Below, in pieces: positions 46,944-54,935 of a stretch of 64,000 nucleotides of DNA (position 1 is the first letter of the stretch; each line of letters opens with the position of its first letter). Both the position numbers and the translations under genes were made by a program. The stretch lies in assembly GCF_000012085.2 (NCBI RefSeq), contig NC_008710.1, positions 806,001-870,000 on the forward strand, in the 5' to 3' direction. The notes beneath the pieces are model-generated. The model was not told the origin of the DNA, ran no database searches, and saw nothing but the letters and a program-made list of their open reading frames with translations. Source of the stretch: Borrelia turicatae 91E135 (lineage in GTDB: Bacteria > Spirochaetota > Spirochaetia > Borreliales > Borreliaceae).

Positions 46944-48389
46944 ATGATAAAGGGCACTGGTCAAATGATTGCCAATATTGCTAATGAGCGAGGAATGAGC
47001 ATAGATGCTATTCGAAAGACGGTTAGGGAATCTATAATGATAGCTTATAAGAAGTATTTTGGAACGAGTGAGAATGCTTTAATTAAGTTTGATGAGGATA
47101 CTGGGGATTTGATAGTTTATTCTAAAAAAAAGATTGTAGAGGAAGTTCAAGACGATATACTTGAAATATTGAAAGACGATTCTCAAGAATTTGAAGTCAT
47201 GGAAGATGGATATGCATATATTGAGATTGATCCAAAGATTTTTGATAGGCTTTCAATTCAAGTTGCTAAGCAGAGAACTAAGAGCGATTTGCAGGGAATC
47301 GAAGATAATGAACTTTATTTAGAATTTAAACACAAATTGCATAAAATTGTTATTGGGTATGTTCAGCAAAATAGGAATGGAGATCTTTATGTGAATCTTG
47401 GGAGTACAGATGGTGTTATTCCTAAGAAATATCAATCTCCAAGGGAAGTTTATGGGCTTAATGATAAAGTTCGAGTTCTTGTTTACAGTGTAAAGAAGGG
47501 AAAAAATGGAATAGAGGTAGTCTTATCAAGGACTCATCCTAAATTTATTGAGGAACTTCTTACTCTTGAGATTCCTGAGATTGAGGAAGGTCTTATTAAG
47601 ATTCATAAGATAGTAAGAGATCCAGGTTATAGAACTAAGGTTGCTGTTTATTCTGAGAAAGAAGAGATTGATCCTGTAGGTCCTTGTATTGGGCAAAAAG
47701 GTGTTAGGATTCAATCAATAATTAAGGAACTTGAAGGTGAAAAAATAGATATTATTCCTTATTCTAAGGATATTAAAGAATTTATTAGAGATGCCTTAAC
47801 CCCTGCTAAAATAGATAATGTATATATTGTTGATGAGGATTTGCATAAAGCTTTGGTGGTTGTTAGCGATGAACAGCTCTCGCTTGCAATAGGTAAAATG
47901 GGACAGAATGTTAGACTTGCAAATAGACTGCTTGATTGGGCAATTGATGTTAAAACTAGTAGTCAATTTGCTGAAATGAAAGCAAGTGGAGAGTTTAAAC
48001 AAGAGACTTTTGAAATGTTTGATAAAATTATTCAGGATAATGTTCAGGAAGATGAATTTGAGGAAATAAATAAAATTAGTGAGCTTAAAATTCTTGATAA
48101 TGATATTGTTGATAAATTGGTTGAAGCAGGTTTTGATGATATTGATAGTTTTTTGGATGCTAGTGAGGAAAAGCTTTTTGAGTTGGGAATAGGTTATGAA
48201 AAGCAAGAAGAAATAAATAAGATACTAAAGGAAGGGATGGTAATAATTTCTAATGATGATGGATCTATTGAAGGTATGAAAGATGAAGAAGAGTTGCTTT
48301 GTCCTGAGTGTGGGGCTGTTATTAATGAAAATATGACTTTTTGTCCAGGTTGTAAGATAGGGCTTAGCTTTGAATTTGAAGAGGAGTAA
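46944..48389 (+). CDS. nusA: Transcription factor NusA with C-terminal zinc ribbon
   Basis: A 481-residue elongation/termination factor: N-terminal polymerase-binding domain (1-130), S1 (about 133-200), KH1 and KH2 (about 210-345; GPCIGQKGVRIQSI and AIGKMGQNVRLANRLL), then a helix-hairpin-helix-like repeat (about 380-430). The C-terminus carries Cys453-x2-Cys456 and Cys467-x2-Cys470, a zinc ribbon absent from E. coli and B. subtilis NusA. The ATG at 46944 has AAGGAG 8 bases upstream; a longer frame from 46902 lies inside rimP. Confidence 0.94.
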   Translation: MIKGTGQMIANIANERGMSIDAIRKTVRESIMIAYKKYFGTSENALIKFDEDTGDLIVYSKKKIVEEVQDDILEILKDDSQEFEVMEDGYAYIEIDPKIFDRLSIQVAKQRTKSDLQGIEDNELYLEFKHKLHKIVIGYVQQNRNGDLYVNLGSTDGVIPKKYQSPREVYGLNDKVRVLVYSVKKGKNGIEVVLSRTHPKFIEELLTLEIPEIEEGLIKIHKIVRDPGYRTKVAVYSEKEEIDPVGPCIGQKGVRIQSIIKELEGEKIDIIPYSKDIKEFIRDALTPAKIDNVYIVDEDLHKALVVVSDEQLSLAIGKMGQNVRLANRLLDWAIDVKTSSQFAEMKASGEFKQETFEMFDKIIQDNVQEDEFEEINKISELKILDNDIVDKLVEAGFDDIDSFLDASEEKLFELGIGYEKQEEINKILKEGMVIISNDDGSIEGMKDEEELLCPECGAVINENMTFCPGCKIGLSFEFEEE

Positions 48390-48393
48390 TAGT

Positions 48394-50955
48394 TTGTCAG
48401 AAAATATTGATGATGATCGCAGTGAAGATGAAAAAAAAATTAAAGTTGTTAAATTACGAAAGAAAGTAGTAAAGGTTGTAGCCCATACTGATAAAAGTTT
48501 GAATAAATCCAAAGATAATTTTGTGGACCTCTCAAATTCAAGAGGAAATCAGGATTCTAATAGAGGATATTCTTATGGCAATAAAGATAGGGGAGTTAGG
48601 ACTTCTTCTTTAAATGTAGATAAGGATAATACTACTAGCCAGCAACAAGGTAATAGGGGCTATTTCAATAGGAACAATGCTTATAATAGAGATAATAGAG
48701 GATATTCTTATGGCGGTAAAGATAAGGGAGTTAGGACTTCTTCTTTAAATGTAGATAAGGGTAATACTAGTAGCCAGCAACAAGGTAATAGGGGCTATTT
48801 CAATAGGAACAATGCTTATAATAGAGATAATAGAGGATATTCTTATGGCGGTAAAGATAGGGGAGTTAGGACTTCTTCTTTAAATGTAGATAAGGATAAT
48901 ACTAGTAGCCAGCAACAAGGTAATAGAGGATATTTCAATAGAACTAATACTCATGGTAGTAGTAGTCCTCAGACATTTAGACGAGTAATAAGAACTAAGG
49001 TTATCTCTAGTGTTGCAATTTCACCTTCTGATTCTGATAATAAGGGTCTTAATAGGAAACTTGGTGAGAAGAAGAAGCAGCAACAAGAAAGTCAAAAAGG
49101 TTACAAGAGGAAAAAGGAAGAAATTGAGAGCAAAACAATAGAACAAAAAGTGTTTGAGCAGCTTCAAAAAAAGAAGAAAGAAAATCTAGCAAATCCAATT
49201 CCTAAGTCAATTGATATTATGGGAACTATTACTGTTGCTGAACTTGCAAGGAAAATGAATTTAAAATCCTCAGATTTAATTGCTAAGTTAATGACTTTAG
49301 GTGTAATGGTAACTATTAATGAGAAGATTGATTCTGATACTGCTACTATTTTGGTTGAAGAATATGGCTCTAAAGTTAATGTTGTGTCAATCTATGATGA
49401 AACAGTTATCGAAGCAGAAGAAGATGATGAGAGCAAGAGGGTTGCAAAACCCCCTATTATTACAATAATGGGACATGTTGATCATGGAAAAACCAAACTT
49501 CTATCAGTGTTGCAAAATATTGATATAAATCAAACAGAGTTTGGAGGAATTACACAACATATTGGTGCTTATACTATTAATTATAATGATCATGAAATAA
49601 CATTTTTAGATACTCCAGGACATGAAGCTTTTACTATGATGAGGAGTCGGGGGGCACAGGTTACAGATATTGTTGTGCTTGTTGTTTCTGCTGTGGATGG
49701 AGTAATGCCGCAGACTGTTGAGGCTATTAATCATGCAAAGGACGCAGAAGTGCCCATTATTGTTGCAATCAATAAGATTGATTTGCCAGATTCAAATCTA
49801 GATAGAGTTAAACATCAGCTTTCAGAGTATGATTTGGTTCCTGAAGATTGGGGTGGAAGTACAATTTTTGTTGCAATTTCGGCTCTTAAAAATATTGGTA
49901 TTACTGAACTTCTTGATATGATTATTCTGCAATCTGAAGTAATGTTATTGAAGGCAAACCCAACTAAAAGGGCTATTGGTAGAGTACTTGATGCTAGAGT
50001 TGACTTAGGTAGAGGAGTAGTTTGTTCTGTGATAATTGAGGATGGAACCCTTTCTATAGGAGATTCTTTTGTTGGAGGAGTCTATCATGGTAAGGTGAGA
50101 GCATTAATTAATGAGAGAGGAGTAGCTGTTAAGAGCGTTGGTCCTGCAAAAGCTGTTAATGTTTTGGGTTTTTCATCAATTCCTCAGGCTGGTGATCCAT
50201 TCCAGGTTACAAAGACAGAAAAAGAATCCAAATTAATTAGTTCTAAAAGACAAGATCTTAAAAAATATGAAGATGCTAAGAATGTAAAAAAAGTTACTGT
50301 ATCAAATCTTTATGATTCAATTAAGGATGGAGCACTTAAGGAACTTAAGATAATTTTAAAAGCGGATGTGCAGGGCTCTGTTGAGGCTTTAAAGCATTCT
50401 CTTGAAAAATTAACTAATAATGAAATTAGAGTAAAAGTTATCCATTCATCAGTAGGAGCAATAACTGAGACTGATATTAGTTTTGCATCAGCAAGTGAAG
50501 CAATTATTATTGGTTTTCACGTACGCCCTGCAGCAAAAGCACAATTGTTAGCCGATCAAGAAAAAGTTGAAATTAGAAAATATAATATAATTTATGATGC
50601 AATTAATGATATTAAATCAGTTCTTGAAGGCATGTTAGAACCAGACATTGAACAAAAATTTATTGGATTTGCTGAAGTTCGTGCTGTTTTTAATATTTCT
50701 AAGGTTGGAGTAGTGGCTGGATGTTATGTTTCACAAGGATGCATAAAACGGGATGCCGTAACTAATGTTATGAGAGAAGGATTTCAGGTGCATTCTGGTA
50801 AAATTTCTTCATTAAGGCGAGCTAAAGAAGATGTTAAAGAAGTTAATGCGCAATATGAATGTGGAATTATGATTGATAATTATTTTGATATTAGGGAAGG
50901 AGATATAATTGAGGCATTTGAGATTAAGAAAGTGAAGAGACGCTTTGAATCTTAA
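48394..50955 (+). CDS. infB: Translation initiation factor IF-2 with repetitive N-terminus
   Basis: An 853-residue IF2. The start is TTG at 48394 with GAGGAG 7 bases upstream, so the frame reaching back into nusA is not used. Residues about 56-184 are three near-identical 45-residue repeats (third incomplete) rich in Arg, Gly, Tyr, Asn and Gln. The IF2N domain ([14 protein letters not shown]) starts near 275. The GTPase domain begins with GHVDHGKT (about 360), with DTPGHE and NKIDLP. C-terminal initiator-tRNA domains are complete. Fourth gene cluster member after nusA. Confidence 0.96.
48559..48945 (+). repeat. In-frame 135-bp tandem repeat in infB
   Basis: Copies start at 48559, 48694 and 48829, exactly 135 bp apart, the third broken off after about 115 bp. 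Copies differ by only a few bases. Each encodes [26 protein letters not shown] and NNAYNRD segments. The high DNA identity means recent expansion or ongoing homogenisation. Confidence 0.97.
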
Positions 50956-52501: not shown

Positions 52502-52768
52502 ATGATTAGTAAAGAACAAAAACAAAAAATAATTACAGAGTTTGGTAAAAATCCAAATGATACAGGTTCGGTTGAAGTGCAAATAGCGTTAATTACAGAT
52601 AGAATAAGGTATTTAACAGAGCATTTAAGGAGCAATAAAAAAGATCATAGCTCTAAGAGAGGTTTATTAAAGTTGGTTGGGCAGAGAAGAAATTTGTTAA
52701 GATATTATCAGAAGAAAAATTTGGAAGCTTATAGAACCTTAATAGCTAAACTTGGACTTAGAAAGTAA
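52502..52768 (+). CDS. rpsO: 30S ribosomal protein S15
   Basis: An 88-residue protein of the exact family length: [23 protein letters not shown] (parts: [12 protein letters not shown]) and [22 protein letters not shown] (parts: [15 protein letters not shown]). It binds 16S rRNA early in 30S assembly. AGGAG precedes the ATG. pnp follows 13 bases after the stop, the usual rpsO-pnp pair. Confidence 0.97.
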
Positions 52769-52781
52769 TAAGGGGTTAATT

Positions 52782-54935
52782 TTGAGAAAAATTTTGAAGT
52801 TGAAAGTAGGAAGGGAAGATTTAATTTTAGAAACAGGCTTATTGGCTAAGCAAGCAAATGGTGCGGTTCTTGCTACTTATGGTGGTTCTACTGTTCTTGC
52901 TACGGTATGTTGTTCAGATTCAGCTCGTGAGAATTTGGATTTTGTTCCTTTATCTGTTGAATATAATGAAAAATATTATGCTGCTGGAAAAATTCCTGGA
53001 GGATTTATTAAAAGAGAAGGTAAACCAAAAGACAAGGAAGTACTTGTTTCTAGATTAATAGATAGACCTATGAGACCGCTTTTTGATAAGAGGTTTGGTA
53101 GAGAAATTCAGGTTGTTCCAACGACATTGTCTACAGATCAGATGAATCCCCCTGATATTGTTGGGATGAATGCTGCTTTTGCGGCAGTTTTTTTGTCAGA
53201 TATTCCGTTTAATGGTCCCATTGCGGCTGTTAGAATAGCTTATTTAAATAGTGAGTTTATAGTAAATCCTTCTTTTGATGAGATACAAGATTCTATTCTA
53301 GATATTGTTGTTGCGGGTAGTTTGGATGGTATTACAATGGTTGAAGGTGGTGCTAATGAGGTTAGCGAGGAAGTGTTGCTTGCTGCAATAGATCAAGCTT
53401 ATGAATATATTAAACAAATTTGTAATCTTCAAAAGGAATTTATACTTATAGTAGGTGAGAGAGAAAAATTACCACTTGCTTATGAAGAAAGAGTATTTGA
53501 ATTTAAGGCTGAACTTAAAGATTTTATTTACTCTGAACTTAAAGATGCTTGTTTTGTAAAGGGGAAACTTAATAGAGATAAGGCTATAAAATTAGTTAAG
53601 CAAAAAGCCTATGAACATTTTTCTTCTGTAAGTCAGGTAGATGAAGAGAATGAAACTCTTTTTTATAAAGCTCTTGATGATTTTGAGCAAGAAATTGTTA
53701 GGAGATCAATCCTGGAAAATAATCTTAGGACTGATGGGCGTAATCCTACACAGATAAGAGATATTGTTGCCGAAGTTGATCTTTTAAGAAGAACGCATGG
53801 TTCTGCTCTTTTTACAAGGGGTGAGACCCAGGCATTGGCTGTAACGACTTTAGGTACAAGTATTGATGAGCAGATAATGGATGATATTGATGGCGATAAG
53901 CGTCTTAATTTTATGCTTCATTATAATTTTCCTCCATTTTCTGTTGGTGAGACAGGTAGACTTATGACTGGCAGACGTGAGATTGGGCATGGTCATTTAG
54001 CTCAAAGGTCTCTGGAAGCTATGTTACCTAAGAAAGATGATTTTCCATATACTATTAGAGTAGTATCTGAGATATTAGAATCAAATGGATCCTCATCGAT
54101 GGCTACAGTATGTTCTGGGAGTATGTCTTTAATGGCAGCTGGTGTTCCTGTTAAGGAACAAGTCGCAGGAATAGCTATGGGACTTGTTAGTGAGGGGGAT
54201 AAGTATGTTATCTTAAGTGATATTCTTGGAGAAGAAGATCATTTGGGCGATATGGACTTTAAGGTTGCAGGAACTAAGAATGGAATTACTGGTTTTCAGA
54301 TGGATATTAAGATTTCAAATGTTACAAAGCAGTTGATGAAAGATGCTCTTGCACAGGCACGAATTGGAAGAATGCATATTTTATCTATTATGGATTCTGT
54401 AATTTCAAGGTCAAGAGATGATATATCTGTTAATGCTCCTAAGATTATTCAGTTACAAATTGATATTGATAAAATTTCTCTTGTTATTGGGTCTACTGGT
54501 AAGACAGTTAAAGCGATTACAGATGAGTTTGAGGTTAGGGTGCAAATTGAGCAAGATGGTAGAATTACTCTTTTTGGGACTGATAGCTTAAAGATGCAAA
54601 AAGCTAAGGCAAGGATAGAGAGTATTGTAAGAGAACCTAAAATTGGTGAGATTTATGAAGGGGTTGTTAAAAAGATTAACAGTTTTGGGGCCTTTATTGA
54701 ACTTACTCCTACCAAAGAAGGATTTTTAAGTAATCGACCAAAATCAAGGGATGATAGATATGGTGATATGAGGCATTCCAGATATGGCAGTGGTAGACAT
54801 TCTAGATATGGTAGAGATAGTAGGAATACATTTGCTATGCGTCCTCCAAGATTAGAGGAAGGACAAATGGTTAAGGTTAGAATATCTGATATTGATAAGT
54901 TTGGTAAGATTGAACTTGAATTAGTTAGAGATTAG
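52782..54935 (+). CDS. pnp: Polynucleotide phosphorylase
   Basis: A 717-residue 3'-5' exoribonuclease: two RNase PH domains (about 5-220 and 310-545; [25 protein letters not shown]), KH (about 553-610; [13 protein letters not shown]) and S1 (about 622-717). The S1 domain is interrupted near residues 650-690 by an Arg/Tyr/Gly/Asp/Ser-rich stretch with three HSRYG or DRYG units. The start is TTG at 52782, six bases after AAGGGG; the frame reaching back into rpsO is not used. Confidence 0.96.

Follow-up and report, generated by a model that had tools for sequence, protein, structure and literature searches.

The infB gene of Borrelia turicatae 91E135, which encodes the essential translation initiation factor IF2, contains a long, near-perfect tandem repeat within its coding sequence. 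The question is what is kept in such an array: its exact sequence, its amino acid composition, the length of the encoded segment, or nothing beyond a product of recombination. All coordinates below are those of the window, the 64,000-nucleotide stretch of contig NC_008710.1 (positions 806,001 to 870,000, forward strand) that was analyzed.

The infB array and its position in IF2

The infB gene occupies positions 48394 to 50955 of the forward strand and encodes a protein of 853 amino acids. Its start codon is likely the TTG at 48394, which is preceded, 7 nt upstream, by a Shine-Dalgarno-like GAGGAG sequence (48381-48386); the open frame itself runs from another TTG at 48370. Pfam searches find the IF-2 (E = 6.6e-42), GTP_EFTU, and IF2_N domains in the order of IF2, and the accessions matched are PF04760, PF00009, PF22042, and PF11987. 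The folded part begins with the IF2_N domain (residues 276-325, positions 49219 to 49368; PF04760, E = 1.8e-15), and the GTPase domain, as delineated by Pfam, spans residues 355-511. The match of solved IF2 structures to the B. turicatae protein begins only at residue 254; the IF-2 chain 3jcj_f from PDB aligns with residues 254-850 (E = 5.8e-169). Residues 1-247 (positions 48394 to 49134) are predicted to be disordered, with pLDDT values below 50 in an AlphaFold2 run that used a 23-sequence alignment, in line with the disorder suspected in an earlier, sequence-only reading of this locus. Thus, the array belongs to an N-terminal disordered arm, and the "tail" named in that reading must be understood as N-terminal instead of C-terminal. 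Ahead of the array, the arm contains a short basic block of 18 residues (positions 48427 to 48480), identified from the sequences and their alignment, which is conserved across Borreliaceae; Lys/Val-rich blocks of a similar kind are found in other spirochaetes.

The array consists of a 135-bp unit (45 codons), repeated in frame at positions 48558 to 48941 (TRF period 135, 2.84 copies, 96% matches, 0% indels, score 719). Across 100 random 64-kb sequences generated by a Markov-1 model with matching dinucleotide content, the best TRF score was 87, which rules out a chance repeat and bears out the near-identical 135-bp repeat reported from the sequence alone. The 135-bp spacing given there was correct, but the first copy begins one base earlier, at 48558 instead of 48559. 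As delineated by TRF and copy comparison, copy 1 (48558-48692) and copy 2 (48693-48827) are each 135 bp long and differ in 5 of 135 bases, every one of these changes altering an amino acid. Copy 3 (48828-48941) is partial, with 114 bp and a decayed 3' end: it differs from copy 2 at two of the first 99 bases and decays thereafter, for a total of 14 differences out of 135. A genome search shows no further copies of the repeat elsewhere in B. turicatae, and the list of open reading frames contains no antisense frame of at least 80 amino acids on the opposite strand over the array.

Arrays in Borreliaceae and other spirochaetes

The infB gene was found in all 36 Borreliaceae genomes searched, with one genome compared per species. 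Two of them, in which the arm contains a run of N, were set aside, leaving 34 gap-free arms. A TRF-detectable array is present in the N-terminal arm in 31 of these 34. The other three, all in the relapsing-fever genus, to which the window belongs, carry a single unit bracketed by perfect or near-perfect direct repeats (47/47, 46/48, and 42/42 bp) at offsets divisible by 3; these forms could be either what unequal exchange starts from or what it leaves behind. The main array periods in Borreliaceae are all multiples of 3, and the length of the disordered arm (IDR) ranges from 77 to 192 residues. The arrays of the nearest genome pair, G003 and G004, are identical.

The sister (Lyme) genus has an infB (BB_0801) array of its own, previously described as a variable-number tandem repeat. 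It is similar to the relapsing-fever one in that it is an in-frame repeat in the N-terminal arm of the same gene, with the same Arg/Gly/Tyr/Asn/Gln composition. However, its unit is 33 bp (36 bp in one genome), or 11 amino acids (QNRDNRTGGYS-like), in approximately 6 to 13 copies, whereas the relapsing-fever unit is 135 to 153 bp, or 45 to 51 amino acids, in approximately 2 to 3 copies. Copy number differs between species. The predicted variation among strains is already published for the Lyme group: a 2013 comparison of 13 B. burgdorferi sensu stricto chromosomes reported few large indels and variable tandem repeats in three genes including infB, with 10 to 12 copies of the infB repeat among strains (PMC3833655), and a 2015 study reported 6 to 12 copies among B. 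afzelii strains and B31 (PMC4370689). For the long-unit relapsing-fever array, its concerted evolution, and its conserved composition, a literature search, incomplete in its coverage, found no published account.

Outside Borrelia, 48 of the 71 spirochaete infB genes contain TRF arrays in the N-terminal arm. These are likewise tandem and often rich in Gly, Arg, Gln, and Asn, but the units are mostly shorter (12 to 57 bp) and several of the arms are Pro/Ala-rich. The arrays of three such spirochaetes, L044, L053, and L080, comprise 9.7 copies of a 57-bp unit, 5.8 copies of a 33-bp unit (98% match), and 10.4 copies of a 33-bp unit, respectively. In a survey of low-complexity regions, IF-2 was the top bacterial annotation (PMC6821194); its passage on IF-2 supplies counts, without a description of the Borrelia infB array.

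Concerted evolution and selection on the arm

The repeat copies undergo concerted evolution. Among 13 genomes with at least two copies each, the mean distance between copies is 0.107 within a genome, as opposed to 0.287 between copies at the same position in different genomes, and none of 2,000 permutations of these copies reached this contrast (p ≤ 0.0005). The Lyme genus shows the same pattern in its 33-bp units (0.092 within versus 0.152 between genomes, p = 0.002). In a FastTree phylogeny, the copies from 8 of the 13 genomes form clades of their own. Within the closest trio (the window genome, G008, and G010), the first two copies cluster by genome in two of the three genomes and copy 3 clusters across species, a pattern to be expected if exchange does not reach the copy at the edge. 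Certain residues have been altered in all three copies together, giving GVRT in the window genome, GVRS in G008, and GART in G010.

The description of the array as young or actively homogenized fits copies 1 and 2 of the window genome, where dS is 0, but it does not extend to several relatives. Sister copies in G005, G009, and G010 have diverged silently (dS 0.15-0.28) and still encode nearly identical protein (dN 0-0.009), indicating that purifying selection also keeps the copies alike. Between species, the dN/dS of the IDR, approximate since it depends on the alignment of the repeats, is 0.26 to 0.64 for relapsing-fever pairs and 0.04 to 0.20 for Lyme pairs; for the rest of infB, it is 0.03 to 0.14.

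The two sister genera use different repeat units and arrive at the same charge and amino acid make-up. The net charge of the IDR is +0.05 to +0.09 per residue across both unit types, and its R/(R+K) ratio is 0.52 to 1.0, compared to 0.29 in the rest of IF2; among the open frames of at least 200 amino acids in the window, the median of this ratio is 0.28 and the highest value is 0.49. The Arg/Gly/Tyr/Asn/Gln richness recognized in the sequence-only reading is indeed extreme: these residues make up 62 of 100 in the array region, the maximum for any 100-residue stretch in the same set of frames, where the median is 23. The array contains six Arg-Gly-Tyr motifs (three each within NRGYSYG and NRGYFNR), and RGG boxes are absent. 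In the relapsing-fever genus, GC3 is 0.221 in the IDR versus 0.217 in the rest of infB, and GC2 is 0.498 versus 0.323. Flat GC3 with raised GC2 points to amino acid choice and away from GC-biased gene conversion, which is rejected as an explanation for the abundance of Arg and Gly in this genus. In the Lyme genus, where GC3 is 0.274 in the IDR versus 0.209, a small contribution of such conversion is possible.

These data also bear on a neutral explanation, in which nearly any disordered and soluble sequence would do for the arm, slippage keeps rebuilding arrays, and the repeat has no function. It would account for the free change of repeat type, unit length, and copy number over the family, for the prevalence of arm repeats in the other spirochaetes, and for the Lyme strains that vary in copy number with no reported phenotype (PMC4370689, PMC3833655). 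It is harder to reconcile with IDR dN/dS values below 1, with the near-zero dN of sister copies in the three genomes where dS has reached 0.15 to 0.28, with the strong preference for Arg over Lys in an AT-rich genome in which GC3 is not raised, and with a charge held in the same range throughout. We consider this explanation possible but on the unlikely side.

Possible functions of the arm

The explanation that we favor, with a probability of about 0.6, is that a recombination-prone repeat resides in a functional Arg/Tyr/Gly-rich disordered arm, which might bind RNA weakly and possibly form condensates in the cold. The array constitutes the middle of the long N-terminal IDR. Slippage or unequal exchange between the copies, the presumed mechanism at the DNA level, would change their number and spread variants, and selection, as composition, dN/dS, and GC3 show, holds the make-up of an arm of roughly 80 to 190 residues (Arg over Lys, Tyr, Gly, Asn/Gln, and a charge of about +0.07 per residue) as the exact sequence turns over. 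Judging from its homologous position and its chemistry, the arm may be multivalent and weakly RNA-binding and may raise the local concentration of IF2.

The analogy comes from Escherichia coli and Caulobacter crescentus, where the N-terminal IDR of IF2 drives RNA-dependent phase separation; the E. coli condensates are cold enhanced and reversible, and the IDR supports fitness in the cold (PMC11838494, a preprint). These IDRs are similar to the Borrelia arm in being long, disordered, and located before the folded core, and no sequence similarity is claimed. By this analogy, the Borrelia arm might drive reversible, RNA-dependent, cold-favored condensates, for which the cool tick phase would be a speculative natural setting. 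Counting against RNA binding and condensation are the low net charge (+0.07) and the absence of classical RGG boxes, as well as the preprint status of the condensate evidence and the very different IDR sequences from which it was obtained. The further suggestion that the array is a tunable, heritable setting of IF2 condensation or RNA affinity, with copy-number shifts adjusting translation initiation between the cool tick and the warm mammal, appears highly doubtful. A further point against the favored explanation is the existence of species with a 77-residue IDR and a single unit, which indicates that copy number is not critical.

As a bacterial example of an essential protein that keeps the composition of its disordered arm while tandem-repeat recombination repeatedly overwrites the sequence, IF2 is unusually clear. 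With two genera sharing one chemistry in different units, it is feasible to test directly what is selected in the IF2 arm, its chemistry or its mere length, and the natural copy-number alleles of the Lyme group make it feasible to test the behavior of IF2 at tick and host temperatures.

Alternatively, the arm might serve as a tether, holding the basic block, which might be a peptide that binds NusA or RNA, away from the ribosome-bound core, with the repeats setting its length. Such a tether is a real alternative because in E. coli IF2 a long flexible linker connects the core with domain I, to which NusA binds (PMC12297416); the conservation of the block in Borreliaceae and the location of nusA directly upstream of infB are consistent with it. 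Against it stand the range of IDR lengths, from 77 to 192 residues, and the constant Arg/Tyr/Gly content, of which a pure spacer has no need. Furthermore, Borrelia IF2 has a single recognized IF2_N match, so that a contact of the E. coli domain I type may be absent. We consider the tether improbable.

A collapse or expansion of the repeat by the assembler, to which the runs of N located exactly at the infB array in two draft relatives (L038, 2826-2995, and L018, 1400-1499) might seem to point, is very unlikely and is rejected: the three-copy layout recurs in two close relatives whose IF2 is 97% identical, each with its own species-specific changes, and the array of B. recurrentis is identical to that of its nearest relative. 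The same gaps indicate that short-read assemblies break at the array, and copy numbers taken from such assemblies should be treated with caution.

The array lies in a gene cluster with the conserved order nusA-infB-rbfA-truB-rpsO-pnp, in which NusA and PNPase were confirmed by Pfam and rbfA, truB, and rpsO were assigned by eye. The 3' end of nusA (48280-48389) encodes a zinc-ribbon-like CPEC...CPGC tail, with a weak match to the Pfam Zn_Ribbon_1 domain (E = 6e-4) that falls below the cut-off. At the other end of the cluster, the S1 domain of PNPase (pnp, 52752-54935) contains an Arg/Tyr/Gly/Ser-rich insertion of approximately 30 residues. The 12 pnp genes read from other Borreliaceae all have a counterpart of this insertion, with a variable sequence; therefore, two RNA-handling proteins of one cluster carry RGY-like segments.
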